Source: Candidatus Cloacimonadota bacterium (GTDB lineage: Bacteria; Cloacimonadota; Cloacimonadia; Cloacimonadales; TCS61). From it: DNA of 59,214 nt. Positions 15,634 to 45,785 of this stretch are shown piece after piece. Made by a program: the position numbers and the translations under genes. The stretch is from assembly GCA_030600585.1 (NCBI GenBank), contig JAUVLU010000013.1, positions 1 through 59,214 on the forward strand. The letters run 5' to 3'. Within the stretch, counting starts at the first letter, position 1. Every line of letters starts with the position of its first letter. Under the pieces are notes generated by a model that was not told where the DNA came from, ran no database searches, and saw only the letters and a list, made by a program, of their open reading frames with translations.

Positions 15634-15660
15634 TTTTTCGACCACAGAGTGTGTATATTC
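15634..15660. promoter_or_regulatory. possible TetR operator upstream of the regulator gene
   Basis: ATTTTTCGACCACA (15634-15647) matches the reverse complement of 16293-16306 (ATTATTCGACCATA) at 12 of 14 positions. That second site lies directly before the next gene. A further TTCGA follows at about 15659. Shared sites before a TetR gene and its neighbour are typical of autoregulation. This is inference from sequence similarity only. Confidence 0.35.
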
Positions 15661-15678
15661 GATAAATAGGAGGTATGT

Positions 15679-16257
15679 TTGAAAGATAATCCAAAAAAGC
15701 AAATCATCACACAGGTTGCTCAAATTATATTTTCCAAGCACGGTTTGCTGGAAACAACTGTCGATGAAATAGCTAAAGCAGCACGAATGGGAAAAGCTTC
15801 TTTGTATCATTATTTTAAAAGTAAAGAAGAAATATTTAAAGAAGTGATAGAGCAAGAAAATAAATTCTTGAAAGAAAAAATTAGAGAAGCAGTTAATAAA
15901 GAAACAACTCCTCAGAAAAAAATGAAAATATACATTTCCAAGAAAATGGAACATCTAAAAGATCTCGTTAATATCAACAGTGCGCTAAAAGATGAATATC
16001 TGGAGCATTACGCTTTCATAGAAAGAATACGGGAAAATAACAGTAGAGAAGAGTTGTTCACTATCCGTGAAATTTTGCAGGATGGAGAAGATAAAGGAAT
16101 CTTTGAAATAAATGATATTGAACTTACGGCTTTTGCAATTGCTTCCGCTTTAAAAGGATTGGAATATCCGTGGTCAATAAATATTTCTTTTCCTGAAATT
16201 GAATCAAATATCAATAAACTTTTGGAAATACTATTCCATGGTATTGAAAAAAGGTAA
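15679..16257 (+). CDS. TetR/AcrR-family transcriptional regulator
   Basis: A 192-residue DNA-binding regulator. The N-terminal helix-turn-helix is clear: QIIFSKHGLLETTVDEIAKA, AARMGKASLYHYFKSKEEIF (about residues 10-55), followed by a helical ligand-binding domain. It starts at a TTG 4 bases after AGGAGG; the ATG just upstream (15674) runs out of frame into a stop at once. It opens a co-directional block that reaches 30240, and a motif near its start recurs before the next gene, so it probably represses itself and that block. The ligand is unknown; a fatty acid or acyl-CoA would fit the lipid genes but is a guess. Confidence 0.85.
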   Translation: MKDNPKKQIITQVAQIIFSKHGLLETTVDEIAKAARMGKASLYHYFKSKEEIFKEVIEQENKFLKEKIREAVNKETTPQKKMKIYISKKMEHLKDLVNINSALKDEYLEHYAFIERIRENNSREELFTIREILQDGEDKGIFEINDIELTAFAIASALKGLEYPWSINISFPEIESNINKLLEILFHGIEKR

Positions 16258-16292
16258 TTTTTTTTATTTATAAAACTCGAACCTAAAACCTA

Positions 16293-16306
16293 TATGGTCG
16301 AATAAT
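16293..16306. promoter_or_regulatory. second possible TetR site
   Basis: TATGGTCGAATAAT lies 11 bases before the start of the GNAT gene, in inverted orientation to the site at 15634-15647. Confidence 0.3.
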
Positions 16307-16316
16307 GGGGTAATAA

Positions 16317-17438
16317 ATGAACATTTTAATCAAAGAAGTAAAAAGTAAAAGGGATTTGAAAAAATTCATTTCATTTCCATACAAACTTTATAAAGGGAAT
16401 AAATACTGGATTCCACAGTTAAAAAAAGACGAGATGAATCTTTTTCAAAAGGAGAAGAATCCTGCTTATGAGTTCTGCGATATAGAATTATGGCTTGCTT
16501 ACAAAAATGAAAAGATCGTGGGAAGAATTGCCGGTATCATCAATTATCAATTCATAGAAAAGTGGCAGGATAAATATTGTCGTTTTGGCTGGATAGATTT
16601 CATCGATGATGAAAATGTTTCAAAAGCTCTTCTTAATACAGTTGAAAATTGGGCAAAAGGAAACGGTATGGAAGCAATTCACGGACCTCTCGGTTTCACA
16701 GACCTCGATCCTGAAGGAATGCTGATAGAAGGCTTCGAAGAACTGGGAACAATTGCTACGATTTATAATTATTCGTATTATAAGGAACATATCAAAAAAC
16801 TAGGTTATAATAAAGATGCCGATTGGGTTGAATATGAAATCAAAGTTCCGGATAAAGTTCCTGAAAAAATTGAAAGAATAGCAAAAATTGTTCAGAAAAG
16901 GAATAAATTGAGAATAGTCCGTGCATCTAAGATAAAAGAGATGAAACCATATTTATTGGATATGTTTTATGTATTGAACACCGCTTACGAAAACCTTTAT
17001 GGTTTTGTTCCCTTAAACGAAAAACAGATTCAAACTTATATCAAACAATATATAAGTTTTGCCAATCCGAAATTGATCAGTATTATCCTGGATGAAAACG
17101 ACAAAGTAGCTGCTTTCGGTTTAACATTCCCATCATTATCAAAATCTTTCCAAAAAGCAAATGGTAAGTTATTCCCGTTTGGTTTTATCCACATTCTTAA
17201 AGCACTGAAAAAAAACAATCTTATCGATCTTTATATCGTGGCTGTACGTCCCGATCTGCAGGGAAAAGGTGTTAATGCACTTCTCTTTAGTGAACTTATC
17301 AAAATCTATATTGATAATAATTTCGAAAAGGCAGAAAGTAACCCTGAACTTGAGACCAACAGCAAAGTTCAAGCACAATGGAAGTTTTTCGATAGAAGAC
17401 AGCATAAAAGAAGAAGATGTTTTATTAAGCATCTATGA
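16317..17438 (+). CDS. GNAT-like N-acyltransferase
   Basis: A 373-residue cytoplasmic protein that I assign to the GNAT superfamily. The first half has KYWIPQLKKDEMNLF, ELWLAYKNEKIVGRIAGIIN (a GNAT strand pair) and EAIHGPLGFTDLDPEGMLIE. The second half has LYIVAVRPDLQGKGVNALLF, where VRPDLQGKG matches the acyl-CoA-binding loop Q/R-x-x-G-x-G/A. The end QWKFFDRRQHKRRRCFIKHL is very basic. This two-part architecture is seen in YghO-like proteins, whose substrates are not known to me. It is the first gene after the TetR regulator, 41 bases before the radical SAM gene. An acyl transfer step in lipid or head-group synthesis is inferred from context. Confidence 0.65.
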   Translation: MNILIKEVKSKRDLKKFISFPYKLYKGNKYWIPQLKKDEMNLFQKEKNPAYEFCDIELWLAYKNEKIVGRIAGIINYQFIEKWQDKYCRFGWIDFIDDENVSKALLNTVENWAKGNGMEAIHGPLGFTDLDPEGMLIEGFEELGTIATIYNYSYYKEHIKKLGYNKDADWVEYEIKVPDKVPEKIERIAKIVQKRNKLRIVRASKIKEMKPYLLDMFYVLNTAYENLYGFVPLNEKQIQTYIKQYISFANPKLISIILDENDKVAAFGLTFPSLSKSFQKANGKLFPFGFIHILKALKKNNLIDLYIVAVRPDLQGKGVNALLFSELIKIYIDNNFEKAESNPELETNSKVQAQWKFFDRRQHKRRRCFIKHL

Positions 17439-17479
17439 TTTATAAAGTAAGAATAAAAAATTAAAAAAAGGAGTTAATT

Positions 17480-18943
17480 ATGAAAACAAGCACAATGAAA
17501 TTAAGCGAATTTATCGCAAAGCAAATTGCAAATTTAAGTTCAATCACAAAAGCATGGAAAATAGCTTTACCACCTCTCGAGAAAATTGCATACAAATATT
17601 TTGTGGATAAAGGAGATCCTGTAAAAGTTGGTCCTCGGCGTCAACGAGAGGACAAATTCTATATAGCATCAAATATTGTACGTGCTGCATTTAAAACGTA
17701 TGATAATGGCTCACCTGCTGTACGTGATCGAATTATAAATTTATTTCTCAAAGCGTTTGTTACGAAAAGTAATGAAAGAAAAGAAAAGATGAAAAAATTT
17801 GAAGAAGAATATGGTACAATGCCACCAACATTCATAACTCTTTCACCCGGAGGTAATTGTAATCTTCGTTGTAAAGATTGTTATGCTGCAAGTGTTCCCA
17901 AAGGACTTCCTTCTCTTTCTATGGAAGAAGTAGAACGAATTCTAAATGAAAAATATGAGAAATGGGGAAGCTGGTTCACGGTTATTTCCGGTGGTGAGCC
18001 ATTTCTCTGGAGAGATGGAGATGTGGACATCATCGATTTAGCAAGACTTCATCCTGAACAATATTTTCTCGTTTATACAAATGGTACTCTTATTGATGAA
18101 GTAAAAGCAAAAAGATTGGCAGAAGTTGGAAATATAACAACAGCTATTTCCGTGGAAGGTTTTGAAAAAGAAACAGACGAGCGAAGAGGAAAGGGAACAT
18201 ACAAAAGAATTCTTATTGCCTTTGAAAATCTGCGAAATGCAGGTGTTCCATTTGGTATCTCTGTTACTGCCACGCCAGAAAATGCAGAACTTCTCATCTC
18301 CAAAGAAATGGTAAAATTCTACTTCGATGAGCAGGGAGCAGTTTATGAATGGCTTTTCCAATATATGCCGATTGGAAGAGGTGTGGAAGTTGAAGGTCAG
18401 ATTTCACCTGAATTAAGGACAAAAATGTGGGCTCGAGAGCAAGAGATAGTTAGAAAAGATCGTTTATTTTTTGCTGATTTTTGGAATGGAGGAACTTTCT
18501 CCTCAGGTTGTATTGCCGGTGGTCGTGAAGGAGGTTATCTATATATTGATTGGAACGGTAACATTTACCCTTGTGTTTTTGTTCCGTTTTGGAAAGATAA
18601 TGTTCATGATCTCAAGAAAGAAGGAAAAACACTAACAGATGCTTTATACTCTGATTTGTTCAAAGGAGTTCGTGACTGGCAATTGTCATATAACTTTATG
18701 TGTAAACCAGATGTACGTGGAAACGAGATAAGACCCTGCTTTATACGAGATCATCACAAAGAAGCGCATGATTTGTTCATAAAGACAGAAGCAAAACCCG
18801 GATATCCTTCAGCAGCAATTTGTTTACATGATCAAGATTATTACAATAAAATGATACAATATGATGACAAACTTGCTGAACTCCTCGATCCGATCTGGGA
18901 AGAACAATATCTTGAATTCGATGAAAAAGATGATAAAAAGTGA
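17480..18943 (+). CDS. radical SAM/SPASM-domain protein
   Basis: A 487-residue radical SAM enzyme. A helical N-terminal extension (residues 1-110) precedes the core. The 4Fe-4S motif is CNLRCKDC (C127, C131, C134), followed by VISGGEPFLW, the conserved GGE motif. The C-terminal half has SPASM-type cysteines: GCIAGG, then NGNIYPCVFVPFW, FMCKPDV, RPCFIRD and AICLHDQD. Many SPASM proteins modify peptides, but others act on small molecules. No precursor peptide is visible next to it, and the neighbours are lipid genes (GNAT, GtrA, START, RND), so a lipid or head-group modification is plausible. The ribosome-binding site AAAGGAG is good. The substrate is unknown. Confidence 0.8.
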   Translation: MKTSTMKLSEFIAKQIANLSSITKAWKIALPPLEKIAYKYFVDKGDPVKVGPRRQREDKFYIASNIVRAAFKTYDNGSPAVRDRIINLFLKAFVTKSNERKEKMKKFEEEYGTMPPTFITLSPGGNCNLRCKDCYAASVPKGLPSLSMEEVERILNEKYEKWGSWFTVISGGEPFLWRDGDVDIIDLARLHPEQYFLVYTNGTLIDEVKAKRLAEVGNITTAISVEGFEKETDERRGKGTYKRILIAFENLRNAGVPFGISVTATPENAELLISKEMVKFYFDEQGAVYEWLFQYMPIGRGVEVEGQISPELRTKMWAREQEIVRKDRLFFADFWNGGTFSSGCIAGGREGGYLYIDWNGNIYPCVFVPFWKDNVHDLKKEGKTLTDALYSDLFKGVRDWQLSYNFMCKPDVRGNEIRPCFIRDHHKEAHDLFIKTEAKPGYPSAAICLHDQDYYNKMIQYDDKLAELLDPIWEEQYLEFDEKDDKK

Positions 18944-18994
18944 ATATTATAATGTTTACTAAAGAAAAACTAATGCCTGAATTAGTGAGTTAAT

Positions 18995-19405
18995 ATGTTG
19001 CGAAATTTCATTAAGTTTGCGATAAGAGGAGTTGCCGGAGTAGTTATCGATACATCAGTGTTATGGATACTGACAACATTTTTTTTCCATTCATATTTCA
19101 CAAAATATGTATTATCTCCGGCAATCTCTTATGAATTAGGAATTGCTGTAACTTATATTATCTGCTATTTCTGGATATGGAATCATAGAGTTCATAATGA
19201 AAAATCTGATTTTTTAAAGCTGTTTCTGCATTATAATTTTGCATTGTTAATTTTTCTTGTTATAAAGATAGGATTATTAACTTTAATCAATGATCTTTTT
19301 CATTTTCATATCGTTATTTGTAATGTATTAGCCTTATGCTTTTCTGGAATTTTTAGTTTTTTTGCAAGTGAAAAATTTATATTTATAAAGAAGGATGAAA
19401 AATAA
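18995..19405 (+). CDS. GtrA-like membrane protein
   Basis: A 136-residue protein with four hydrophobic segments, starting LRNFIKFAIRGVAGVVIDTS, the usual GtrA opening, and with the late block ALCFSGIFSFFASEKFIF. GtrA-family proteins are thought to flip polyprenyl-linked sugars across the inner membrane. The stop is 2 bases before the next start, so the two genes are co-translated. In this block it could supply a lipid-linked sugar or flip another lipid. Confidence 0.75.
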   Translation: MLRNFIKFAIRGVAGVVIDTSVLWILTTFFFHSYFTKYVLSPAISYELGIAVTYIICYFWIWNHRVHNEKSDFLKLFLHYNFALLIFLVIKIGLLTLINDLFHFHIVICNVLALCFSGIFSFFASEKFIFIKKDEK

Positions 19406-19407
19406 TA

Positions 19408-20025
19408 ATGAAAAAAATGTTGGCAATTATACTAACCGTAAGCTTTTTTATGTTGATTGAAAATAATACTTACGCTAATCTTTTAGAGCAAAAATTGGAT
19501 GAGTCAACTTTAAAGGAATTACTGAACAGAGGTGAATTAATTCATCTTGAAGAAGAAAATGGGAAACTAAAACACATTGATTATGCTATCCTTATAGATG
19601 CGCCGTTGGATAAAGTATGGCATGTAATAACTGATTTTGAAAACTATCCTGACTTTATACCGGGACAAAAGGCATGTAAAATTATTAATAAACAAGGTAA
19701 TGAGACGATAGTCGAATCTGCTGTAGAATTTAAATTTATGGGAGTTGGTTCTACAGTTAATTATACTACAAAATATATCTTAAATAAACCTGAATTAATA
19801 ATTTTCGATACAAAAAAAAATAGGGAGATAGGACGTTATAAATTTATTCCAATTGATGAAGGAAAACGTGTTGTGCTTTTTCGGACAAAGGAGGTTGATA
19901 GGGATAACTTTACAGGTGTTGTCAAAATTTTAATCAACAAGAAACCGGAGATAGAATTTTCTTTATATTTATCTCCTCTCAGGATTAATATGAAAGCAAT
20001 AAAAGAAAGAGCAGAACAATCATAA
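19408..20025 (+). CDS. exported START/SRPBCC-like lipid-binding protein
   Basis: A 205-residue protein with signal peptide MKKMLAIILTVSFFMLIENN followed by TYA. The mature part fits the SRPBCC fold: IDYAILIDAPLDKVWHVITD then FENYPDFIPG, a hallmark of START/polyketide-cyclase-like proteins, followed by strands and a C-terminal helix. The fold makes a hydrophobic cavity that binds lipids or other apolar ligands. Export to the periplasm next to an RND exporter and a LolA-like carrier suggests a periplasmic lipid shuttle. The function is inferred. Confidence 0.7.
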   Translation: MKKMLAIILTVSFFMLIENNTYANLLEQKLDESTLKELLNRGELIHLEEENGKLKHIDYAILIDAPLDKVWHVITDFENYPDFIPGQKACKIINKQGNETIVESAVEFKFMGVGSTVNYTTKYILNKPELIIFDTKKNREIGRYKFIPIDEGKRVVLFRTKEVDRDNFTGVVKILINKKPEIEFSLYLSPLRINMKAIKERAEQS

Positions 20026-20045
20026 ACAAAAAAAGGAGAATTAAA

Positions 20046-20474
20046 ATGAAAAGAAATTTATTCTTATTAGCAGTTTTGATAGTTATCACAATATCAGGTT
20101 GTGACGATGTAGTGAAAGCAATAACTACAACTATTTCAGGGAACGTAAGCAATGATGGAGAAGCTGTTTCAGGTGCCTATGTACTATTATTAGAAGCAGG
20201 GGATGAAGTAACCCAGGGTATTTCGCTTTCCAATGGAATGATAACAAATTCTGCCGGAGATTATACTATGGTTGCAGTAAGTGCAGGAGATTACTATGTA
20301 GCAGCAATTGATGATGCCAATAATAACATTATTTTTGACCTGGATACAGATAGAGTTGGCTATTATGGCGTGGCTGATACACTTACAGGCATTACGATTC
20401 CACAAACTCTCCATATCAGTAAAGGGGATGATTTAGAAGATATTGATATTACCGACCTGTATCAATTGCCGTAA
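20046..20474 (+). CDS. lipoprotein with carboxypeptidase-regulatory-like domain
   Basis: A 142-residue lipoprotein: MKRNLFLLAVLIVITISGCD has a lipobox (ISGC, Cys19). The rest, TTISGNVSNDGEAVSGAYVL ... SAGDYTMVAVSAGDYYVAAI, is a carboxypeptidase-regulatory-like or transthyretin-like Ig fold of about 90 residues. It has a DxDxD-like acidic loop (FDLDTDRVG) that could bind calcium. A good ribosome-binding site (AAAAAGGAG) precedes it. It is probably a structural or docking lipoprotein of the block. Confidence 0.65.
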   Translation: MKRNLFLLAVLIVITISGCDDVVKAITTTISGNVSNDGEAVSGAYVLLLEAGDEVTQGISLSNGMITNSAGDYTMVAVSAGDYYVAAIDDANNNIIFDLDTDRVGYYGVADTLTGITIPQTLHISKGDDLEDIDITDLYQLP

Positions 20475-20504
20475 TTGATGAAGGTATTAATCAAAAGAAT
20501 ATCT

Positions 20505-21014
20505 ATGAAAACATACAAAGTTGTTACTTACATTATACTTGGGGCAGTTCTTTTTCTTGTTGGTTGCACTGAAAAAAATTTTGTTTCCGTGCCGGATAGC
20601 TATAATGACCAGGGCAGGGAATTAATTTACGCTGAAGAACGAGTTGAAGGTGAACATTCTTGCGGTTCCTTTTTGAAATTTACTCCAAGCGTAGATTTTC
20701 AGGTTGCAATAGACAATGCTATTGAAAAAGGACAAGAAAAATTCGGAGATGAATATGTTGCTTTTGCTGATATTATCGCTTGGTACGAAGTAACAAATTA
20801 TGTGCTTTATAAAACATATTCAGCAAAAGTTACCGGATGGCCTGCTCGATTTGCTACTGACAGATTTGACTCTTCAAATTTTACAGGAGAAGAATTTCCA
20901 ATGATATTTAATGGTAAACCTGTTTATTATCATATTTCTACAGGTATAAAAAACAATTTTGATAATTTTGAATACAGTGTAAAAAATATAGAGGGAAATA
21001 TTATAGGAGAGTAA
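20505..21014 (+). CDS. lipoprotein of unknown function
   Basis: From the ATG at 20505 the product is 169 residues and begins MKTYKVVTYIILGAVLFLVG then C, a lipobox-type signal. In-frame TTG (20475) and ATG (20478) codons lie directly after the preceding stop and would add 9-10 basic residues; neither has a clear ribosome-binding site. I do not recognise the mature domain. It contains EGEHSCGSFLKF, an FEYSVKNIEG end and many aromatic residues. It is tightly packed between other exported proteins and the 43-codon gene that follows. Confidence 0.55.
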   Translation: MKTYKVVTYIILGAVLFLVGCTEKNFVSVPDSYNDQGRELIYAEERVEGEHSCGSFLKFTPSVDFQVAIDNAIEKGQEKFGDEYVAFADIIAWYEVTNYVLYKTYSAKVTGWPARFATDRFDSSNFTGEEFPMIFNGKPVYYHISTGIKNNFDNFEYSVKNIEGNIIGE

Positions 21015-21018
21015 AGGT

Positions 21019-21150
21019 ATGAAAAAAGCAACAGAACTACTCATAATATATCGAACTGGAGAAATTATTGGATTAATTACAATAATTGTAGGTGTTAATT
21101 ATTTATTAAAAAGGTTGAATAATAAATTATGTGATATTAATTTCATTTAA
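21019..21150 (+). CDS. small membrane protein (43 residues)
   Basis: A short open frame with an ATG 7 bases after TAGGAGAG and only 4 bases after the previous stop. It encodes MKKATELLIIYRTGEIIGLI, then TIIVGVNYLLKRLNNKLCDI and NFI. One transmembrane segment (about residues 15-30) is flanked by positive residues on both sides. Spacing and ribosome-binding site suggest that it is real and co-translated. It might be an accessory subunit of the exporter encoded next. No homologue is known to me. Confidence 0.5.
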   Translation: MKKATELLIIYRTGEIIGLITIIVGVNYLLKRLNNKLCDINFI

Positions 21151-21219
21151 TCTTTATGATTAACCGCAATAATTGTGAGACACACTAAATTAAATAAGAA
21201 ATAGCAGGAGAATAAAAGT

Positions 21220-24165
21220 ATGAGAAAATTCGCAGAATTGGTACTGAAATATCGTGTTCCGATAATAATTGGAACTATCATTATAACAGTATTTATGGCA
21301 TTTCAATTGAGAAAACTGGAAATCAGCAGTGACATTCTGGAATACTTACCGCAAGATGATCCGAATGTAGTTTTATTTAATGAGGTCGGAGATAAATTCG
21401 GCGGAAATTCAATAGCAATGATCGCTTTGGAAACTGATGATGTTTTCAATCCTGAAACATTGAATCGTGTAAACACTATAACACAAAGATTCAAAGAAAT
21501 GTCTGAAATATCTTATGTGACCAGCCTTACGGATGTTATAGATATTAAGAAAATGGAAGATGGTCTGGAAGTTGGAAAATTGTTCGATGAGCGATATATC
21601 CCATCTGAAAAAAATGAATTGGAAAATATCAAGAATTACACATTATCCAAAGAGATGTATCGTGGAAATATCGTTTCGGATGACGGAAATATCGCAGTAG
21701 TTATTGCCCGCTTAAATGAAGATGCAGACAGGCTTATTGTCGGGCGAGAAATGAAAGAATTTGTTCTATCTACAACAGGAAATGAAAAACTATATTTTGC
21801 CGGTATTCCTTTCCAGATGATTTATCTGACAGATGTTATTAATTCCGATATTGTCAAATTGCTTCCTGTAGTTTGTCTTTTGCTGATCATAACTTTGGCA
21901 ATAAGTTTCCGCAGTAAGCGCGGAGTGATATTGCCACTCGCAACTGTGTTCATCAGCACAACCTGGGGTTTGGGATTAATGTCTTTGTTTGGTGTCAAAC
22001 TCACGGTCGCTTCCGACGGAATACCTATCTTACTGATCGCTATCGGCAGTGCTTACGGAATTCACCTGGTAAATAAATATATGGAAGATATCCGTAAAGG
22101 TGATAATAAAATCGAGGCTATCAAAGAAACTATTAGCGAAGTAGGTGTACCAATTTTCCTGGCGGGCTTAACCACATCTATCGGATTTTTAGCATTTTTA
22201 ATTTCCAATCTGACGATTATCAAAGAGTTCGGAATTTTCACTGCAATTGGAGTTATGTTCGCTTATATTGTTGCCATCACTTTTTTGCCTGCTCTTCTGT
22301 CATTTATGCCTGCTCCCAAAATCAAAGTAAAAAAGGAATCTCTTGAGCCGACTTTAATGAATCGTTTTATGACCGGTTTAAGCAGGTTAATTCTAAAAAG
22401 AAAAATTGTAATTCTGATTATCGGTTTCATTATTTTTATTGTTGGAACCTTCTCGCTCTTTAAAATTAACAGAGAAGTAAATATGGTGGATTACTTTAAG
22501 AAGGATAGTGAGATTCGTCAGGCAGAAGATATGATGGAATCAAAACTCGGCGGTTCCATTCCTATCCAGATTTTAGTGAAAGGCGATTTGCAGGAACCTG
22601 CTGTACTAAAAGAGATGATCAAATTGGAAAAATACCTGAAAAGCCTACCGGATGTTCACGGTCCTCAATCTATTGCAGATCTGATCTGCGAAATGAACGA
22701 TGTGATGAATGACCGTTACTGCATTCCGCAAACCCGCGAAGGAGTGGCAAACCTCTGGTTCTTTTTAGATGGAAATGAAATTCTTCCACAATTGATCAAT
22801 TCGCAAAATAATGAAGGATTAATTCAAGCAAAACTGGGAACGGTAAATACAAAAAAAGTGAATCATATAACCGGAAAAATAGATGAATTTATTTCTGAAA
22901 ATATAAATTCTGATATTTTAATGATCAACTTAACGGAAGCAAATTCCAATATAAAAGAAATAGATATGGAAAGAGTGAAAAGCATTTCAAATATGATTTT
23001 TTATGATGCTGCTTATTATGGTTTTGAAATAAAAGACAAAAATGCTTTGGAAAAAATCCTGCATAAATATATAACTCAAGAGAATCAGAAAATTCCAACT
23101 TCCAATCTAACCATTAAATTAGTAAATTATATGAATAATGAGGACGGTGATCTACTGATAGAATCTTCATCTCTGCAGAATAAAGTGGTTAAATCTCTCT
23201 TGAAATATTTTGAGAAAAATCAAGATTATTTTGAAAAGGGAATTGTTTCAAACTTAAAGAAAGTTGTTCCTTATTCATATTATGAAGATGATCCTGAAAT
23301 GCTGGATTATGCAGCGATGTCGATTGTTTCTATTGTTGAGAGTGAAATAAAATGGAATAAAACGAATAATCTAATAAAAGAGATAACACCATTATTTTCA
23401 AAAGATATACAGCAAAATCCTGATTTTAAGAAAAACCTGATCGGTGATGTCTGGGAAATTAATGATACTCAAATTTTCATTTCCAAGGAGAAATTTAAGA
23501 ACTTGAATAATAATGATCAACTCTCAACGATTTCTCTCAATTTACAGCAAACAGGAATGCCGATAATCTATAAAGATATTGATAACAACATAGTTTCCAG
23601 CCAGACATACAGCCTTCTTTTTGCAATCGGGCTTGTGTTTATTTTGCTGGCAATTCAATTCAAATCGGTTATTGGCGGTTTGATATCTATTTTACCGATA
23701 ATATTGACTGTTCTTTTCAATTTTGCACTTATGTGGATTTTCAAAATCCCTTTAGACGCAGCCACCGTTATGATCGGAAGTGTTGCAGTGGGAATTGGAA
23801 TCGATTATACGATACATTTTAATAATCGTTTTCATTTTGAGATCAGCAATAAAAACAGCGTGGAAAATGCTCTTGAAACTACATTACAAACAACCGGAAG
23901 AGCTATCATAATCAATGCCTTCTCCGTAATGCTCGGTTTTTTAACACTATTATTGGGAAGCATAGTTCCGATGCAGAGATTCGGGTGGCTGATCGCCCTG
24001 ACAATGTTGATCAGTGCAACAGCTTCGATCACATTTTTGCCTTCGTTACTTTTAGTTACACACGCTTCCTTCCTTGGAGATTTGAAAAATATGACATTGA
24101 AACAAGCTATCAATATAAAAGCAAACATCAAACAGAAAGCGAATAATATTAAAGAACAGAAATAA
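21220..24165 (+). CDS. MMPL/RND-family lipid exporter
   Basis: A 981-residue inner-membrane transporter with the duplicated RND layout. One transmembrane helix (RVPIIIGTIIITVFMAFQL) leads into a periplasmic domain (about 35-200), then five helices (about 205-340), helix 7 (about 390-410), a second large periplasmic domain (about 415-790), and five more helices (about 795-945). SDILEYLPQDDPNVVLFNEV is typical of the hopanoid/MMPL branch, which moves lipids or lipid conjugates rather than small drugs. GIGIDYTIHFNNRF carries the helix aspartate expected for proton coupling. Patatin, LolA-like and DUF1302-like genes follow, a grouping that suggests export of a lipid to the outer membrane. The substrate is unknown. 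Confidence 0.85.
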   Translation: MRKFAELVLKYRVPIIIGTIIITVFMAFQLRKLEISSDILEYLPQDDPNVVLFNEVGDKFGGNSIAMIALETDDVFNPETLNRVNTITQRFKEMSEISYVTSLTDVIDIKKMEDGLEVGKLFDERYIPSEKNELENIKNYTLSKEMYRGNIVSDDGNIAVVIARLNEDADRLIVGREMKEFVLSTTGNEKLYFAGIPFQMIYLTDVINSDIVKLLPVVCLLLIITLAISFRSKRGVILPLATVFISTTWGLGLMSLFGVKLTVASDGIPILLIAIGSAYGIHLVNKYMEDIRKGDNKIEAIKETISEVGVPIFLAGLTTSIGFLAFLISNLTIIKEFGIFTAIGVMFAYIVAITFLPALLSFMPAPKIKVKKESLEPTLMNRFMTGLSRLILKRKIVILIIGFIIFIVGTFSLFKINREVNMVDYFKKDSEIRQAEDMMESKLGGSIPIQILVKGDLQEPAVLKEMIKLEKYLKSLPDVHGPQSIADLICEMNDVMNDRYCIPQTREGVANLWFFLDGNEILPQLINSQNNEGLIQAKLGTVNTKKVNHITGKIDEFISENINSDILMINLTEANSNIKEIDMERVKSISNMIFYDAAYYGFEIKDKNALEKILHKYITQENQKIPTSNLTIKLVNYMNNEDGDLLIESSSLQNKVVKSLLKYFEKNQDYFEKGIVSNLKKVVPYSYYEDDPEMLDYAAMSIVSIVESEIKWNKTNNLIKEITPLFSKDIQQNPDFKKNLIGDVWEINDTQIFISKEKFKNLNNNDQLSTISLNLQQTGMPIIYKDIDNNIVSSQTYSLLFAIGLVFILLAIQFKSVIGGLISILPIILTVLFNFALMWIFKIPLDAATVMIGSVAVGIGIDYTIHFNNRFHFEISNKNSVENALETTLQTTGRAIIINAFSVMLGFLTLLLGSIVPMQRFGWLIALTMLISATASITFLPSLLLVTHASFLGDLKNMTLKQAINIKANIKQKANNIKEQK

Positions 24166-24175
24166 TGAGGTGCTT

Positions 24176-25117
24176 ATGGACTGGAAAAATGAATTAATGA
24201 GGCATTTAAAAAAGAAAAAAGTGGGTTTGGTTCTTGGCAGCGGTGGCGCAAAAGGGTTATCTCATATCGGTGTAATAAAATTTTTGGAAGAAATGGATGT
24301 AAAAATAGATTTTATTACCGGTTCGAGTATTGGATCCTTGATCGGAGGTGCTTACGCCAGCGGATTAAGCATCAACGAAATTGAGGATATTGCTCTAAAA
24401 ACCGATCTCACATCCACAGCAAAGCTTTTTTCACCAGGATTTGGAAAATCAGGTTTGGTTACGGGAACAAAAGTTCAGGAATTTTTAACTTCAACATTAG
24501 GTAACAAAAATATAGAAGATCTTCAAATTCCTTTCACAGCAGTAGCAACCGATATAATCACAGGAGAAGAAATCCATTTTAATAAAGGTGATCTCGTAGA
24601 AGCAATTCGAGCCAGTATTTCAATTCCTATCGTTTTTCAACCGGTGATCTGGAATGATATTGTTCTTGTTGACGGCGGTCTGGTCAATCCTGTTCCAATT
24701 AATGTAGCACGTGAAATGGGAGCGGATTACATTATTGCAGTTAACATATTATCATCAAAAAATAAACCTGACTCAAAACTTGATACGAAGTTCGATAATA
24801 AAATAAATTTGGAGAGACCTCTCGAAATCATTCCAGTTCTGCAAAGAAAACTCGAAGACTTGATAATCGACCATAAATGGATAAGGAATTTCATTAAGCA
24901 CAAAGAGAAGGAAGATTTACCGGGAATGAAAAAAATATTTTATCAATCGGTTCAGATCGCTCAGGAAAAGTTGATCGAATTATCTATCGAATTATACAAA
25001 CCGGATCTTTTAATAGAACCTGAAGTAGGGAATTATAGTATGTTCGATTTTTATAAAGCAGAAGAAATAATTGTAAAAGGATATGACGCTGCAAAAGAAG
25101 CTTTAAAAGAAAAATGA
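24176..25117 (+). CDS. patatin-like phospholipase
   Basis: A 313-residue serine acyl hydrolase. The oxyanion loop LGSGGAKGLSHIGVIKFLEE, the nucleophile elbow FITGSSIGSLIGG (GxSxG) and the catalytic aspartate in VLVDGGLVNPVP are all present. Such enzymes cleave acyl chains from phospholipids, and bacterial RssA-like members are intracellular. I chose the ATG at 24176, with TGAGG 5 bases upstream; a GTG at 24170 is an alternative. It starts 10 bases after the exporter stop. It could free acyl groups for remodelling or release the exported lipid precursor. Confidence 0.85.
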   Translation: MDWKNELMRHLKKKKVGLVLGSGGAKGLSHIGVIKFLEEMDVKIDFITGSSIGSLIGGAYASGLSINEIEDIALKTDLTSTAKLFSPGFGKSGLVTGTKVQEFLTSTLGNKNIEDLQIPFTAVATDIITGEEIHFNKGDLVEAIRASISIPIVFQPVIWNDIVLVDGGLVNPVPINVAREMGADYIIAVNILSSKNKPDSKLDTKFDNKINLERPLEIIPVLQRKLEDLIIDHKWIRNFIKHKEKEDLPGMKKIFYQSVQIAQEKLIELSIELYKPDLLIEPEVGNYSMFDFYKAEEIIVKGYDAAKEALKEK

Positions 25118-25129
25118 GTTCTATTTAAA

Positions 25130-25164
25130 ACTTGTCACAAGCGGTTTATCGTCTTGTGATAAGT
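25130..25164. repeat. imperfect inverted repeat
   Basis: ACTTGTCACAAG (25130-25141) and CTTGTGATAAGT (25153-25164) pair at 11 of 12 positions. A second, more irregular palindromic stretch follows to about 25245, with CAAGACCTTCC and GGTCGGCTTGTG parts. It has no T-run and lies between patatin and the LolA-like gene. Confidence 0.55.
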
Positions 25165-25277
25165 TGACTTTGCTATCGACTTAACACAAGACCTTCCGGC
25201 TTCATACATTATGCCGAGACAGGTCGGCTTGTGCCAAGTCTTGGAAAAAGCAAAAGAATAAAAAAAGGAGACGAAAG

Positions 25278-26018
25278 ATGAAAAAAATGGCAATAACCAT
25301 TACAATGCTTCTAATTATTGGAAGTATTTATGCTCAAACACACTCAGCAGAAGACATCCTGATAAATGCAGATGCAGTCGTGAATGCACCGCAAGATCAG
25401 GAAATATCGCTGAAAATGACTTTAACGGATAAAGGCGGAAACGAGAAAGTAAGAGAGATAAAGATGTATCAGAAAGGTGATGAAACTCGTTTAATTCGCT
25501 TTCTTTCACCGGCAGACCAGAAAGGTGTGAGTTTCTTATCACTTCCCGATGATGTTCAATATCTATATCTTCCTGCATTTCATAAAGTAAGACGAATTGC
25601 ATCTCACATAAAGAATGATAATTTCGCCGGTACGGATTTCAGTTATGACGATATGAGTGCCAGCAAATATGCAGAAGAATATGATGCCACTCTCTTGGAC
25701 AAAACAGATGATCTGTATATACTTGAACTGATTCCCAAACAAGGTGTGGAAAAGAATTACAGTAAACTGAAAATGTGGGCAAGGCAAGATAATTTTTATC
25801 CTGTAAAGGTAGAATTTTATGATAAGAATTCCACCCTTTGGAAATTATTTGAAAGCCGAAACATCAAAAAGAACGGTAAGTATTGGGTTGCATCAGAAGC
25901 AGAAATGACAGACCTGAAAAAACAGCACAGCACCAAAATGATCATTGATAAAGTGGAACTGGATAAAGGTCTTGCTGATAATATTTTTACTAAAAGAAAT
26001 CTGAAAAGAGTGAAATAG
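25278..26018 (+). CDS. LolA-like outer-membrane lipoprotein-sorting protein
   Basis: A 246-residue periplasmic protein with signal peptide MKKMAITITMLLIIGSIYAQ. The mature part matches the LolA-like family annotated as outer membrane lipoprotein-sorting protein. QTHSAEDILINADAVVNAPQ opens it, followed by GDETRLIRFLSPADQKGVSF, LPDDVQYLYLPAFHKVRRIA, and DNFAGTDFSYDDM, which is very typical. The half-barrel carries an acyl chain across the periplasm. Pairing with an MMPL exporter and a DUF1302-like barrel is a recurring arrangement, so it is likely the periplasmic carrier for the exported lipid. Confidence 0.85.
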   Translation: MKKMAITITMLLIIGSIYAQTHSAEDILINADAVVNAPQDQEISLKMTLTDKGGNEKVREIKMYQKGDETRLIRFLSPADQKGVSFLSLPDDVQYLYLPAFHKVRRIASHIKNDNFAGTDFSYDDMSASKYAEEYDATLLDKTDDLYILELIPKQGVEKNYSKLKMWARQDNFYPVKVEFYDKNSTLWKLFESRNIKKNGKYWVASEAEMTDLKKQHSTKMIIDKVELDKGLADNIFTKRNLKRVK

Positions 26019-26028
26019 ATTGGGTTAA

Positions 26029-26060
26029 AACTTCCGAAGTTTCAAAAAACTTCGGAAGTT
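26029..26060. repeat. perfect 14 bp palindrome
   Basis: AACTTCCGAAGTTT (26029-26042) and AAACTTCGGAAGTT (26047-26060) with a 4-base loop. It lies 11 bases after the LolA-like stop and has no T-run. It is the first of several palindromes up to 26198. Confidence 0.8.
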
Positions 26061-26123
26061 GATTCAAAAATAACTCAAAACCTTGCGAATGGTCACAGAC
26101 CTTCGCAATGGTTGAAAAACACC

Positions 26124-26165
26124 GACCATTACGGAGGTTTCGTAAACTCAACCATCCGTAAGGTC
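26124..26165. repeat. dispersed 42 bp repeat, inverted copy of 4429-4469
   Basis: GACCATTACGGAGGTTTCG and CTCAACCATCCGTAAGGTC flank a TAAA centre. The reverse complement equals the copy at 4429 except in the centre. A related but diverged pair (CCTTGCGAATGGTC and GACCTTCGCAATGGT, about 26081-26114) stands directly before it. Confidence 0.75.
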
Positions 26166-26174
26166 TTAATTCTT

Positions 26175-26198
26175 GTTCCCAAAGCCCTCTTTGGGAAC
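26175..26198. repeat. perfect 10 bp palindrome
   Basis: GTTCCCAAAG-CCCT-CTTTGGGAAC. It resembles the palindrome translated inside the sorting domain at 12706-12731, so the same kind of element is found both between and inside genes. Confidence 0.75.
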
Positions 26199-26253
26199 AT
26201 AATAATAAAATATGAAACAGGAAGTTTATTAAAAAAAAGAAAGGAGAAGTAGA

Positions 26254-27597
26254 ATGAGGAAAAAAGTATTTATAATAATCGGCATATTAATCGCAATATT
26301 CAGCAATTCTTATGCTCAAGCAGATTTCAGTATCAATGGTTATTTGAAAACAGATAATCGAATGCTCACGGATGATAATTATTTTACCTGGAATGAAAAT
26401 CAATTAGGACTCAAATTTGAAGGTTCGTATTCTGGCAAATATCATCTATACAGTGAAGTTCGTTTAAGAGGATTCGGCTTTCCTGAAACATCTCAAACAG
26501 CGGATTTGCAGAGCAAAAATAAAGTTTATAAATGGGATTTGGAATTTCGGGAAGCATATCTCGATCTATACCAGTTTGGTTTACAGGATTTGGATGTAAG
26601 GATCGGACGACAGGTAATTACATGGGGAACTGCTGATAGATTGAATCCGACCGGCAATATCTGTCCTGAAGATTTGGAAGATGTTTTCAATTTTGGTGAG
26701 CAATCGGGCGTAAATTCCGTTTTGACAACTTACTATTTGGGAGATTTCACTTTTTCTGGAGTATACGTTCCCGCCTTCACTCCGGCAGTTTTACCTTCAG
26801 GTATTTATGCTTCCGCTCTATCCGCACCAATGGAATTTCCGGTAGGAATGACGCTTCGTAAGTATTGGGACACAATAATCTTACCGGAACAGAAATTTAC
26901 AGAATCGTCGCAGGCAGCTTTTAAACTCGGCACTAGTTTATTTGATTATGATCTGTCGTTCAGTTATTATTACGGCAGAGACGATTTACCTTTGCTTAAC
27001 AAAGTTATTATTACTCCTGTCGATACATTGGGCACTGTAGATGCAACAGCTGAGATGATCTATCCGAAAATGCAGGTTATCGGTGCGGACTTTGCAGGAA
27101 GCTTTCTCGATGTAGGAATTTGGGGAGAAGCCGCTCTTACGATTCCTGAAAAGATAATACTTTCTACCGATTTAACAGCTTTAGGTATGGGAATTCAAGA
27201 ATCTGTTGCTCTCGATGATGCTCCGTATTGCAAATTCGTGTTTGGTGGAGATTATACATTCAAAAACGGATTGTATTTTAATGCTCAATATCTGCACGGT
27301 TTCATTCACGAAAGGGGAAATGACAATCTGAATGATTATCTTACATTTCACTTTGAAAAGAAATTCTTTAATGATGAATTGAAAATAGTTCCGATTGACG
27401 GAGCAATTTCTGTAACTGATTGGGATGATTACGAAAACAACTATGGTTTAGTCCTTAATCCTGAATTATCTTTTCTTCCGTATGATAATATTGAAATGAT
27501 TCTCGGAGCGTTTATTCTCGATGGAAAAGGAAGCAATATGTTCAGTAGTTTGAAGGATAATGATGAAGTATATTTCAAAGCAAAAGTGAGTTTTTAA
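26254..27597 (+). CDS. DUF1302-like outer-membrane beta-barrel
   Basis: A 447-residue outer-membrane protein with signal peptide MRKKVFIIIGILIAIFSNSY then AQA. Alternating strands run throughout, and the block DVRIGRQVITWGTADRLNPT is a hallmark of DUF1302-like barrels. It ends with an aromatic residue (YFKAKVSF), as barrels do for BAM assembly. DUF1302 proteins are found next to LolA-like proteins and RND exporters, as here. A role as the outer-membrane exit or receptor of the lipid route is inferred. Confidence 0.8.
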   Translation: MRKKVFIIIGILIAIFSNSYAQADFSINGYLKTDNRMLTDDNYFTWNENQLGLKFEGSYSGKYHLYSEVRLRGFGFPETSQTADLQSKNKVYKWDLEFREAYLDLYQFGLQDLDVRIGRQVITWGTADRLNPTGNICPEDLEDVFNFGEQSGVNSVLTTYYLGDFTFSGVYVPAFTPAVLPSGIYASALSAPMEFPVGMTLRKYWDTIILPEQKFTESSQAAFKLGTSLFDYDLSFSYYYGRDDLPLLNKVIITPVDTLGTVDATAEMIYPKMQVIGADFAGSFLDVGIWGEAALTIPEKIILSTDLTALGMGIQESVALDDAPYCKFVFGGDYTFKNGLYFNAQYLHGFIHERGNDNLNDYLTFHFEKKFFNDELKIVPIDGAISVTDWDDYENNYGLVLNPELSFLPYDNIEMILGAFILDGKGSNMFSSLKDNDEVYFKAKVSF

Positions 27598-27608
27598 AAA
27601 AAAGTGAA

Positions 27609-27806
27609 ATGGAATATTCAAAAATTATATTCCTGATAATAGGTTCTCTTTTTTTTCTATTTGGCATTGCAATAACTATTTATCCAAATGAAATCGGGAG
27701 ATGGTTAAAAAATCATTCTTTTCTATCGAATGATTCATTGTATTTAATCGGTTATATTCTGGGTTTATTTGGGTTAACAATATTGGTTATAATATTTTGG
27801 GGGTAG
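27609..27806 (+). CDS. small two-helix membrane protein
   Basis: A 65-residue protein made of two hydrophobic segments: KIIFLIIGSLFFLFGIAITI at the front and YLIGYILGLFGLTILVIIFW near the end, joined by PNEIGRWLKNHSFLS. It starts 11 bases after the barrel gene and ends 7 bases before the next, so it is part of the same transcript. I do not recognise a family. Confidence 0.55.
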   Translation: MEYSKIIFLIIGSLFFLFGIAITIYPNEIGRWLKNHSFLSNDSLYLIGYILGLFGLTILVIIFWG

Positions 27807-27813
27807 TTTAATT

Positions 27814-28254
27814 ATGTTACTGAAGTATATTTTGCTCGCTGTTTTTGGAATTGCAATGGCTCATCTGGAAGGAGTCGTTGTCGTCTATTTGCGTAAAGCT
27901 CTCGATTTTAATGAAAATGGTTCGAATATAAATTTTCTGCAGAAATTTCCTAAAAAATATCTTTTCATTGAACGAACAAGGGAAGCAGCTACGATCATTA
28001 TGCTCGTTGTATTAGCTGTTCTTGTTGGAAATGGTTTGTTTGATATGATCATCGTTTTCCTCTGGACATTTGCTTTTTGGGATTTATTCTATTATGTTTC
28101 ACTCTATGTTTTGATAAAATGGCCGAATAATCTTAAAACAATAGATGTTCTTTTTCTCATTCCCAAACCCTGGATCGCCCCGGTCTGGTTTCCGATATGT
28201 ATCTCATCGATAACAATTCTGTGTATTTTTATATATCTGGTTTTTTTATCTTGA
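27814..28254 (+). CDS. polytopic membrane protein of unknown function
   Basis: A 146-residue inner-membrane protein with about four hydrophobic segments. LLKYILLAVFGIAMAHLEGV opens it; EGVVVVYLRKAL and IERTREAATIIMLVVLAVLV carry charges at the membrane border; FLWTFAFWDLFYYVSLYVLI and the end IPKPWIAPVWFPICIS are rich in aromatic residues. The embedded His, Glu and Arg residues look enzyme- or transport-like, but I cannot assign a function. Confidence 0.6.
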   Translation: MLLKYILLAVFGIAMAHLEGVVVVYLRKALDFNENGSNINFLQKFPKKYLFIERTREAATIIMLVVLAVLVGNGLFDMIIVFLWTFAFWDLFYYVSLYVLIKWPNNLKTIDVLFLIPKPWIAPVWFPICISSITILCIFIYLVFLS

Positions 28255-28299
28255 GTCCAGTCCAATAATGATTACTGAAGATAAAAGGAGAATTATATA

Positions 28300-28407
28300 A
28301 TGAGCAATGATAATGAAGCCGTACGTGTACTGGAATTGCTGTGTTGTTTTCAATCTATTACAGAACGTTGCAAAGATATTCTAGAAAATATAAATTTCAG
28401 GAGATAA
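28300..28407 (+). pseudogene. fragment of a DUF2156 gene
   Basis: The 35-codon frame reads MSNDNEAVRVLELLCCFQSI then TERCKDILENINFRR. Its middle (LLCCFQSITERCKDILE) is almost the same as LLCCFQTITERCKDILE in the intact gene at 29068, and the DNA matches closely over about 60 bases (28336-28395 with 29310-29370). A good ribosome-binding site (AAAAGGAG) precedes the ATG. It is probably the remnant of a duplicated gene; translation may still couple into the next gene. Confidence 0.6.
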
Positions 28408-28410
28408 CTT

Positions 28411-29007
28411 TTGAGAATTTTATACAGAATTTTTGCATTCATTGTAAATTTATTCTCCAAAGTTATTGGAAACCTAAAGATAATTCATCCTGAGAGATTA
28501 AGAGATATTGAGGGCTGTATTATTGCTCCCAACCATATTAAAGCTAGTGATGCACCTTTTATTATGAGTATCTTTCAAAAAGAGATGTATTTAATTGCCA
28601 AAAAAGAACTTTTTGAAATTCCGTTTTTAAATATTTTGATAAAATATGTGGGAGCAATTTCAGTTCGGCGTGGTCAAGTGGATAGAAAAGCTATTGTTCA
28701 AGCAAAAGCGGTATTAGAAAAAGGCTATATACTAATGGTATTTCCCGAAGGTTCCAGAAAATCAGATACTGCCAAACCGGGGATCGGAAAAATAGCTTTC
28801 GAATCTCAAAGCGATATTGTACCTATTTTTATCAAATATCCCAAAAGCTGGATTAAATCTGTTATCAGAAAAGATTGTATGAAAATTGTGGTTGGTGAGA
28901 AAATTATAATTTCAGAATATGAAATATCTGAGAATCATAAAGATGTTTATCGTTTTATTGCCAAAGATATTTTGCAAAAAATAATGATGTTAGAAAAAGA
29001 GTGCTAG
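28411..29007 (+). CDS. plsC: 1-acyl-glycerol-3-phosphate-type acyltransferase (PlsC family)
   Basis: A 198-residue membrane-associated acyltransferase. The HX4D motif is NHIKASDAPF, and the substrate motif is MVFPEGSRKSD; ISVRRGQVDRKAI lies between them. An N-terminal amphipathic or hydrophobic stretch (ILYRIFAFIVNLFSKVIGNL) anchors it. PlsC homologues add acyl chains to lysophosphatidic acid or other lipids. It starts at TTG, with CAGGAG 10 bases upstream. Between lipid-export genes and a DUF2156 gene it could make a specialised lipid rather than bulk phosphatidic acid. Confidence 0.85.
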   Translation: MRILYRIFAFIVNLFSKVIGNLKIIHPERLRDIEGCIIAPNHIKASDAPFIMSIFQKEMYLIAKKELFEIPFLNILIKYVGAISVRRGQVDRKAIVQAKAVLEKGYILMVFPEGSRKSDTAKPGIGKIAFESQSDIVPIFIKYPKSWIKSVIRKDCMKIVVGEKIIISEYEISENHKDVYRFIAKDILQKIMMLEKEC

Positions 29008-29067
29008 GATTTATTGAAATTAAAGAATTTAATATTCAAATTCTTTTAACAAAAGGAAAATAGTAAA

Positions 29068-30240
29068 ATGCAAAAAGAAAATGAAGCTGATCTTGTGCTA
29101 GAATTACTGAAAAAATATGGCTATCATTCCCAATCATACAATATCCTGCGCAGCGACAAATCATACTTTTATTCGTCTTCCGGTATCGAGGGAGTGATCG
29201 CTTATGTTGTTAAAGCCAATGTGGCGATGGCAGCGGCTGATCCTGTCTGTGACCCTTCCAATATTAATTCGTTTGTTACTGAATTCAGAATGTTCTGTAA
29301 AGAGCGGAAATTGCTGTGTTGTTTTCAAACTATCACAGAACGTTGCAAAGATATTCTAGAAGAAATGGGGTTTGGAATGATTAAAATAGGCGAAGAACCT
29401 ATCTTTGATTTAGAACAATTTTCGTTGGATGGAAGCAAGTTTAGAAGTTTGCGAAAAAACATAAATCAAGCGAAAAAACAAGGTTTGTCAATTGTGGAAT
29501 ATCATCCTCTTTTGGAGAGACAACCGGAATGGGAAAAAGATATGGAAGAACTTTCCGCTATCTGGAAAAAATTCAAAGGCTCGGGTGAGTTCTCTTTCCT
29601 GATTGGAGAACCTGCTATAGACAATCCCAAAGACAGGAAATATTTTCTGGCACTCCTCGATAACAGAGTTGAAGCATTTGTGGTTTGCACTCCCGTTTAC
29701 ACAAGAAACGGAATTTACTTCGATGTAATGCGCCGCCAGGAAAAAACTTTAAATGGATTGCCGCAGTTATTATTTACAGAATCTTTTCGTATCTTAAAAG
29801 AGCAAGGATACACGATGGCAACTCTTGGAACTGCACCACTTTCATACGAACATACAACTGATTCGGAGCAAAGTAGAATAATTAAAACAGCACTCAAATT
29901 AGCGTTTAATCGTTTGGGATATTTTCATAGATTCAAACCACTTTATAAATTTAAAAGACAATTTGGTCCAACCTCGTGGGAAAGTCGTTACCTTGCATTT
30001 TCACCTAAACTATTCAATCCGATTATTCTCTATGCTCTTCTGAAGGTTTATGATCCGACCAGTGTAACCAGAAAACTTTTATATCAACTGAATTCCGCTT
30101 GGAAAAGTATTAACAAACTAAAAGATGGTTCCGTTGATTTTTTAGGTTCTACTTCCGGAAATGTAATTAAAGGAATCAAAGGAACAAGTCATAAAGCAGT
30201 TGGGAAAACTAAAAGGAAAATTACTAAACTATTGCAGTAG
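29068..30240 (+). CDS. DUF2156 (MprF C-terminal-like) protein
   Basis: A 390-residue soluble protein of the DUF2156 family, which is the cytosolic domain of lysyl-phosphatidylglycerol synthase MprF and has a twin-GNAT fold. Typical blocks are EGVIAYVVKANVAMAAADPV, SLRKNINQAKKQGLSIVEY, and YTMATLGTAPLSYEHT. There is no flippase part. It may transfer an aminoacyl group from tRNA onto a lipid head group, or another acyl group. The C-terminal tail is strongly basic (KAVGKTKRKITKLL). It is the last gene of the block and ends at a shared bidirectional terminator. A degenerate copy of one part lies at 28300. Confidence 0.75.
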   Translation: MQKENEADLVLELLKKYGYHSQSYNILRSDKSYFYSSSGIEGVIAYVVKANVAMAAADPVCDPSNINSFVTEFRMFCKERKLLCCFQTITERCKDILEEMGFGMIKIGEEPIFDLEQFSLDGSKFRSLRKNINQAKKQGLSIVEYHPLLERQPEWEKDMEELSAIWKKFKGSGEFSFLIGEPAIDNPKDRKYFLALLDNRVEAFVVCTPVYTRNGIYFDVMRRQEKTLNGLPQLLFTESFRILKEQGYTMATLGTAPLSYEHTTDSEQSRIIKTALKLAFNRLGYFHRFKPLYKFKRQFGPTSWESRYLAFSPKLFNPIILYALLKVYDPTSVTRKLLYQLNSAWKSINKLKDGSVDFLGSTSGNVIKGIKGTSHKAVGKTKRKITKLLQ

Positions 30241-40292: not shown

Positions 40293-40303
40293 GAAACTTC
40301 CTA

Positions 40304-42316: not shown

Positions 42317-42318
42317 AA

Positions 42319-43413: not shown

Positions 43414-43415
43414 AA

Positions 43416-45784: not shown

Positions 45785-45785
45785 T

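Follow-up and report, generated by a model that had tools for sequence, protein, structure and literature searches.

Does an unbroken run of sixteen genes in a Candidatus Cloacimonadota bacterium encode one system, or do unrelated lipid genes merely lie side by side? The question is raised by positions 15679-30240 of a 59,214-nucleotide stretch of DNA (the window), which is one entire contig (JAUVLU010000013.1) of a 2.58-Mb draft genome (GCA_030600585.1). A reading made from the sequence alone had described an uninterrupted plus-strand run with small gaps, and this was confirmed: sixteen open reading frames, all on the plus strand and in the order listed there, are separated by gaps of 2-235 bp, and the block starts 140 bp past the end of the preceding upstream gene. 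The order is a TetR regulator, a GNAT acyltransferase, a radical SAM enzyme (rSAM), a GtrA-type protein, a START-like protein, two lipoproteins, a 43-residue membrane protein, an MMPL exporter, a patatin, a LolA-like carrier, a DUF1302-like barrel, two small membrane proteins, a PlsC-like acyltransferase and an LPG-synthase domain protein. The block is more than a mere neighbourhood. On balance we lean towards the view that it is one laterally moving, modular locus for lipid modification and export, built on a TetR-rSAM core and controlled by a putatively lipid-sensing TetR. What can be read off the sequences themselves is which genes the block holds, that it recurs and moves laterally, its link with TetR across phyla, the operator-like sites and the intact rSAM motifs.

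The evidence starts with the regulator and the DNA on its two sides:

15638..15662, + strand: operator-like site 1, TCGACCACAGAGTGTGTATATTCGA, upstream of TetR; kept in 13 loci, flanks not kept

15679..16257, + strand: TetR regulator (PF00440, 56.6 bits)

16277..16301, + strand: operator-like site 2, TCGAACCTAAAACCTATATGGTCGA, between TetR and GNAT; conserved across phyla

A TetR-controlled operon calls for a palindrome beside its regulator; here two conserved sites, both predicted operators, frame the TetR gene. The 25-bp palindromic motif lies on either side of it (consensus of the second copy, AACTCGAACAAAAAACCAATATGGTCGAATA) and recurs in several phylum-level groups. When the DNA before TetR was aligned from 13 loci, a promoter-like TTGAC and the palindrome were kept and the remainder was not conserved. 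Site 1 is the sole exact match in its own genome; site 2 had one match only, allowing up to 3 mismatches, and the control had 0. Nineteen second sites served to train a weight matrix; above a threshold of 14 bits it matched 2.2 Mb of sequence, both strands counted, 32 times, and the reversed sequence 0 times. Half of these matches (16/32) were outside the training set; all 16 adjoin TetR, either immediately ahead of its gene or in the interval to the neighbouring gene, and they come from Cloacimonadota, Aminicenantes, Marinimicrobia and further lineages. A matrix retrained on both site types detected weaker sites in a Bacteroidales locus (L099), before patatin, TetR and MMPL, and others in WOR-3 and Stahlbacteria loci, some weak sites being near background score. 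The genes downstream of the operator-like sites include GNAT, FabH, rSAM, phasin (followed by UbiB and rSAM) and PlsC; in genome G039 it is the exporter module. Conserved operator-like sites before these genes are, as far as sequence goes, the strongest evidence for one regulon. Scanning the window's own genome for further regulon sites yielded no second good site; the C10 site lies inside a nucleotidyltransferase gene. Because TetR resembles the Bacillus-type fatty-acid regulator FadR only weakly (NF053878, 51 bits, cut-off 200), a ligand of lipid type is a guess.

The second half of the proposed core is the radical enzyme:

17480..18943, + strand: radical SAM enzyme with a single auxiliary site of three cysteines (PF04055, 86 bits)

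This protein was used as bait in 60 related genomes and in a collection scan, the latter yielding 80 loci from many phyla. The CX3CX2C motif (C127, C131, C134) is intact in 70/70 relatives, as are the auxiliary cysteines C365 and C420, with C344 in 69/70; the GGEP motif is also retained. The protein had been labelled radical SAM/SPASM, and the second part of that label holds only partly: this is not a full SPASM enzyme. The SPASM model PF13186 scores 18.0 bits, below its cut-off of 21.5, and in place of the seven-cysteine, two-cluster motif only C344, C365 and C420 are conserved. This suggests a single auxiliary cluster with a free corner. The remaining family calls of the sequence-only reading were borne out by Pfam (TetR_N, GNAT, Radical_SAM, GtrA, Polyketide_cyc2, two MMPL domains, patatin, LolA_like, DUF1302, Acyltransferase and LPG_synthase_C, the current name of the former DUF2156); SPASM was matched only in part. 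A second radical SAM paralogue is present in the same locus in L044 (11455-13990), L039 and L076, adjoining a GNAT-type gene in L044 and L039. In L067, L069 and L092 an NAD-synthase-like ATP pyrophosphatase gene recurs near rSAM; a possible function is that of an amide-forming enzyme.

What keeps company with rSAM was examined in the 80 loci by comparing genes within 4 kb of it (387) with those at 4 kb and beyond (438). TetR was strongly enriched (42/387 versus 4/438, p 8e-11), followed by UbiB (17 near, 2 far, p 1e-4), phasin (16 and 3, p 8e-4), patatin (19 and 6, p 3e-3) and PlsC (11 and 4, p 0.03). In many other phyla the rSAM gene adjoins TetR, patatin, PlsC, UbiB with a phasin-like protein, or an MMPL-LolA-DUF1302 exporter. 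Mantel correlations with rSAM distances were 0.80 for UbiB, 0.74 for phasin, 0.70 for PlsC, 0.63 for patatin, 0.49 for both TetR and LolA and 0.36 for MMPL. Because related genomes were counted as independent and have a common species history, these sequence comparisons support rather than prove a joint history of rSAM and its partners.

The distribution of the block argues for lateral movement. Genomes with the closest relatives are mostly named Candidatus Cloacimonadota. Among the 60 related genomes a close rSAM copy was found in 0/9 other members of the genus, whereas in other genera and families rSAM is 81-89% identical where present. Near-complete blocks in other Cloacimonadota families (L041, L042 and L044 among them) have mostly 71-92% protein identity, against 46-49% for a neighbouring housekeeping protein. 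G114 belongs to the same class as the window's genome but shares no lower rank with it; its near-complete block has identities of 86% (rSAM), 88% (MMPL) and 91% (LolA); SppA, the neighbour of the block, is 46% identical there, while same-genus copies are mostly at 79-86%. With the GroEL of the same-family genome G028 as query, the window's genome reached 82% identity, G042 78% and G114 70%; the block proteins at 86-91% are thus more alike than GroEL at that distance. The same-genus genome G002 (L223, G002:C131) shows the region without the block: just one gene, for a surface protein, lies between SppA and a 90% relative of window gene 4566-6974. In the window this gene is some 23 kb from SppA; the G002 site is devoid of the block and its neighbours. 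Because the block is largely missing in its own genus and highly identical in other families, the sequences indicate that it moves laterally.

That the genes travel together held in part: the block recurs, but it does so as modules and not as one fixed set. Partial blocks were found in WOR-3, Latescibacteria, Eisenbacteria, Aminicenantes, Calditrichia, Marinimicrobia and Spirochaetes, and the exporter half in G019, G020, G029 and G039. Exporter genes are missing from the same-genus G005, whose set comprises GNAT, the 43-residue protein, patatin, the 65-residue protein, LPG synthase, phasin and UbiB. Variable members, present in some loci and not in others, are FabH, PlsC, a thioesterase, DUF212, a second radical SAM gene and UbiB/phasin. 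In G019 IS66-type transposase genes (read from sequence; L138 267-1105) take the place of the block's front half, beside a START fragment. A search of a plasmid collection gave no close block. The Methanosphaera plasmid pNP174 (L221, 7212-8924), from an archaeon, carries a 33% relative of rSAM with a TetR gene immediately in front of it; Klebsiella and Escherichia albertii plasmids (L220, L222) carry 34-36% relatives near replication genes and IS elements, without the remaining block.

The lipid enzymes of the window are the following:

16317..17438, + strand: GNAT-type acyltransferase, 373 residues (PF00583, 33.9 bits)

24176..25117, + strand: patatin-like phospholipase, RssA-like (PF01734, 121.6 bits; NF007623, 187.5 bits, cut-off 272)

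about 28300..28398, + strand: decayed LPG-synthase gene fragment before PlsC (77% identity to LPG-synthase residues 81-102, E 1.6e-10; 64% to residues 1-14)

28411..29007, + strand: PlsC-like acyltransferase in a variable slot (PF01553, 77.8 bits)

29068..30240, + strand: LPG-synthase (MprF C-terminal) domain protein without flippase part (PF09924, 200 bits; LysPGS 4v36, E 1.5e-27)

Paralogues and relatives of GNAT adjoin PlsY-like and FakA/DegV-like genes (families read from sequence), which suggests acyl transfer as its role; its predicted structure reached a pLDDT (predicted local distance difference test score) of 56. The LPG-synthase protein (390 residues, zero predicted spans) aligns over residues 1-320 with lysyl- and alanyl-phosphatidylglycerol synthases and scores 170.8 bits with the MprF model NF033480 (cut-off 600). 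Relatives of the block have fixed insertion points, FabH between TetR and GNAT and PlsC between lipoproteins 1 and 2; in L044 a second GNAT and a radical SAM gene are inserted after rSAM. The slot before LPG synthase holds PlsC, a thioesterase or DUF212, depending on the relative. Because decayed LPG-synthase fragments lie at this same point in the window and, as a longer piece before a thioesterase, in G019 (L138, about 9940), the slot seems to have been filled by recombination through LPG-synthase copies. The PlsC gene at 28411 looks like a recent passenger, and of the whole set its membership is the least certain.

The exporter, the carriers and the small envelope proteins are encoded at:

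18995..19405, + strand: GtrA-type small membrane protein (PF04138, 53 bits)

19408..20025, + strand: START-like (SRPBCC) protein (PF10604, Polyketide_cyc2, 39 bits) with an N-terminal signal sequence, recognised by inspection

20046..20474, + strand: lipoprotein 1, lipobox ISGC, CarboxypepD_reg; alignment with invariant Cys19

20505..21014, + strand: lipoprotein 2, lipobox LVGC, no family match in the family scan

21019..21150, + strand: 43-residue single-span membrane protein before the exporter, with homologues in other genomes

21220..24165, + strand: MMPL/RND exporter, HAE3-like, 12 predicted spans (PF03176, 181 bits, two MMPL domains)

25278..26018, + strand: LolA-like periplasmic carrier (PF17131, 194 bits)

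26254..27597, + strand: DUF1302-like outer-membrane barrel (PF06980, 32.1 bits, cut-off 23.2, partial)

27609..27806, + strand: small membrane protein, 65 residues, weakly DUF2065-like (PF09838, 17.4 bits, below cut-off), kept in L138, L139 and L198

27814..28254, + strand: membrane protein, 146 residues, about 4 spans, 89-90% identical in L139 and L145

Cys19 of the lipobox of lipoprotein 1 was kept in 10/10 aligned sequences, including relatives from loci of other phyla. Lipoprotein 2 probably starts at ATG 20505 rather than at TTG 20475. The 43-residue protein is real: homologues 57-84% identical to it occur elsewhere, in most cases immediately ahead of MMPL. It has no fixed cysteine, C38 being Y or F elsewhere. 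The MMPL protein scored 320.4 bits with the HAE3 model TIGR00921, below the cut-off of 351.9. Its first-half motif AIGSAYGIH lacks the Asp that is present in the second-half motif GIGIDYTIH; across phyla, exporters of the block type have Ala for the usual first-half Asp and keep the second-half Asp. The LolA-like carrier also scores with PF07044 (DUF1329; 37 bits, above cut-off), and its relatives with solved structures are PDB 9tp6, 3bk5 and 4z48. Hairpin-rich gaps flank the LolA gene at 25117-25278 (predicted -48.1 kcal/mol) and 26018-26254 (-77.6 kcal/mol) and might adjust how strongly the LolA and barrel genes are expressed. Relatives of another MMPL gene, which is of a different type (G000:C64:206-2509, L152), occur in many related genomes; one of this kind adjoins TetR, LolA and DUF1302 in L053 (G025).

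At its end the block is closed by a strong hairpin, which faces the convergent SppA-like gene 30422-32788:

about 30370-30410, no strand assigned: terminator hairpin, stem GCCCTG-CTCG/CGAG-CAGGGC, then TTTT

Scans for terminators stayed at chance level, and those for promoters were little above it. The 18-base terminator-type repeat AAAGCCCTGCTCGATAAA occurs in three copies (10253-10270, 15558-15575 and 30375-30392) and flanks the block on each side; in the copy at 15558 the right arm is gone. These repeats could be substrates for recombination. Farther on, at 37025-51280, a glycan cluster of mostly low guanine-plus-cytosine content (26-31% across 38-52 kb) encodes glycosyltransferases, a flippase, a polymerase and a chain-length protein (families read from sequence).

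How might these parts work together? TetR would bind both 25-bp palindromes flanking its own gene and hold the block silent; a ligand of lipid type, probably an acyl compound, would lift this repression. The cytoplasmic and inner-membrane enzymes would then alter a membrane lipid: GNAT and PlsC (FabH or a thioesterase in relatives) would set its acyl groups, patatin would trim it, the LPG-synthase domain would add an amino acid to the head, and rSAM would make a further change by means of the one open-site auxiliary cluster it has. Transfer of the product into the periplasm would fall to the MMPL pump, with the 43-residue protein perhaps acting as an AcrZ-like partner. From there the START and LolA-like proteins and the lipoproteins would carry it, and the DUF1302 barrel would insert it into the outer membrane or pass it through. 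From the gene families we infer the ligand, the lipid, the order of the steps, the transport direction, aminoacylation and the radical step. More tentatively, and with less confidence than we attach to the locus itself, TetR, its paired operators and the three-auxiliary-cysteine rSAM may constitute the core of an undescribed lipid-modifying system across many bacterial phyla, with the TetR-rSAM pair even on an archaeal plasmid. Depending on need, this core would join up with UbiB/phasin, patatin/PlsC, aminoacyl transfer or an exporter made of an HAE3-like pump, LolA and DUF1302, and its product might be a lipid with a new carbon-centred modification. Two open questions are touched, how unusual lipids are transported to the outer membrane in diderms and what most radical SAM enzymes in uncultured phyla do. 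One putative regulon, marked by a searchable DNA site, ties rSAM, lipid enzymes and exporter and provides a gene set and a predicted ligand class. If true, this would mean new lipid chemistry in anaerobic bacteria of the FCB group and in related ones, whose envelopes have hardly been studied.

Several findings weigh against this proposal. The genomes G019, G020 and G039 carry the exporter without a close rSAM, and many rSAM relatives have no exporter nearby. Enrichment of the exporter near rSAM is weak for MMPL (10 near, 5 far, p 0.1) and absent for LolA; neither LolA nor DUF1302 was enriched within 4 kb in the 80 loci, because both follow MMPL farther off. Many loci are related, and the enrichment and distance tests treat as independent what shares species history. 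The solved structures among rSAM relatives belong mostly to enzymes acting on peptides or nucleotides. Finally, the nearest characterised exporter, AmeABCD of Castellaniella defragrans, exports foreign terpenes and not own lipids. The main rival is efflux with membrane repair: TetR would sense a toxic hydrophobic compound, MMPL-LolA-DUF1302 would expel it, and patatin, PlsC, GNAT, the LPG-synthase domain and rSAM would repair or remodel the membrane, with no dedicated exported lipid. A TetR gene beside an RND pump is a classic efflux arrangement, and optional, laterally moving gene sets suit a role in stress. AmeABCD, which includes an HAE3 pump, DUF1302 and LolA-superfamily proteins, confers monoterpene tolerance (PMC6394551). 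However, an AmeC-like (COG4447) periplasmic protein was not found among the block proteins in family scans, and lipoprotein 1 and the START protein have no AmeABCD counterpart. In many loci TetR is paired with rSAM, UbiB/phasin and patatin but no pump is present, so the core of the regulon appears to be enzymatic. We regard efflux with membrane repair as unlikely, though it deserves to be taken seriously.

The remaining explanations are much less probable than efflux. In a peptide pathway rSAM would mature a small ribosomal peptide, e.g. the 43-residue protein, which MMPL would export. The predicted rSAM model (pLDDT 91.5) indeed has SuiB, anaerobic sulfatase-maturating enzyme (anSME) and SkfB as nearest folds (template modelling (TM) scores about 0.43-0.52), and these act on peptides or proteins. 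Yet no PqqD-like recognition gene or domain was present among the block proteins, and the 43-residue protein is a membrane span which keeps no cysteine and stays with an exporter lacking close rSAM in G019. Since rSAM, moreover, has three auxiliary cysteines and not seven, ribosomal peptide maturation was rejected as improbable. Slightly less probable still is that rSAM is a membrane-spanning-lipid synthase, of the Mss or tetraether synthase (Tes) type, that joins two lipid tails while the other genes supply or move the product. This had been suggested by taxonomic spread, as rSAM overlaps with the reported occurrence of Mss in Cloacimonadota, Latescibacterota, Spirochaetota, Patescibacteria, Planctomycetota and others (PMC11868695). 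Although Mss is reported to retain the catalytic architecture of Tes (PMC13274423), Tes (7tom/7tol) ranks only 48 and 50 by fold (TM 0.37-0.38) and its profile match is confined to the core (E 2e-9); it was set aside as the leading reading because fold and profile both place Tes far down. Least probable of all is a chance neighbourhood of unrelated lipid genes. Module boundaries do differ between genomes, but recurrence across phyla, lateral transfer, conserved operator-like sites and small gaps speak against chance for the set as a whole. The modular lipid modification and export locus thus remains our preferred reading.

How does such a locus relate to known systems? The sequence-only reading had not recognised the combination as a described system, and literature and family-library searches, with subscription papers largely outside their scope, likewise gave no description. 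A sphingolipid locus was considered in view of a serine palmitoyltransferase-like gene and a CDP-alcohol transferase in the Marinimicrobia cluster L090; it was not adopted because the 50% relative in the window's own genome is on a different contig. rSAM has the radical SAM core and the first auxiliary-cluster motif CX15GX4C in common with the SPASM enzymes SuiB, SkfB and anSME, but conserves three auxiliary cysteines only and has a helical N-terminal domain of about 110 residues. In other phyla UbiB and a phasin-like protein often accompany rSAM, reminiscent of UbiB/COQ8-type lipid handling; UbiB is absent from the window's genome, and on that ground a dependence of the block on UbiB was rejected. 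Of MprF/LPG synthase the catalytic C-terminal domain is present (200 bits, aligning with LysPGS 4v36), but the flippase half is not, and the gene is part of a putative lipid-export block. With the hopanoid exporter HpnN and the MmpL exporters, which have lipid substrates, the block MMPL shares the MMPL/RND fold and 12 predicted spans; it is not an HpnN (TIGR03480, 165 bits, cut-off 751.85), has Ala for the first-half acidic residue and sits with a carrier and a barrel. The sequence-only reading had taken it as known that MMPL, LolA-like and DUF1302-like proteins recur together, and this agrees with the characterised cassette AmeABCD (PMC6394551). By analogy this is the export set which the block most closely resembles, since an RND pump (HAE3 in AmeABCD, HAE3-like in the block), a DUF1302 outer-membrane protein and a LolA-superfamily periplasmic protein are encoded together in both. 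The genome setting differs, and the block adds the 43-residue protein, the START protein, the lipoproteins, the lipid enzymes and a TetR with paired operator-like sites.

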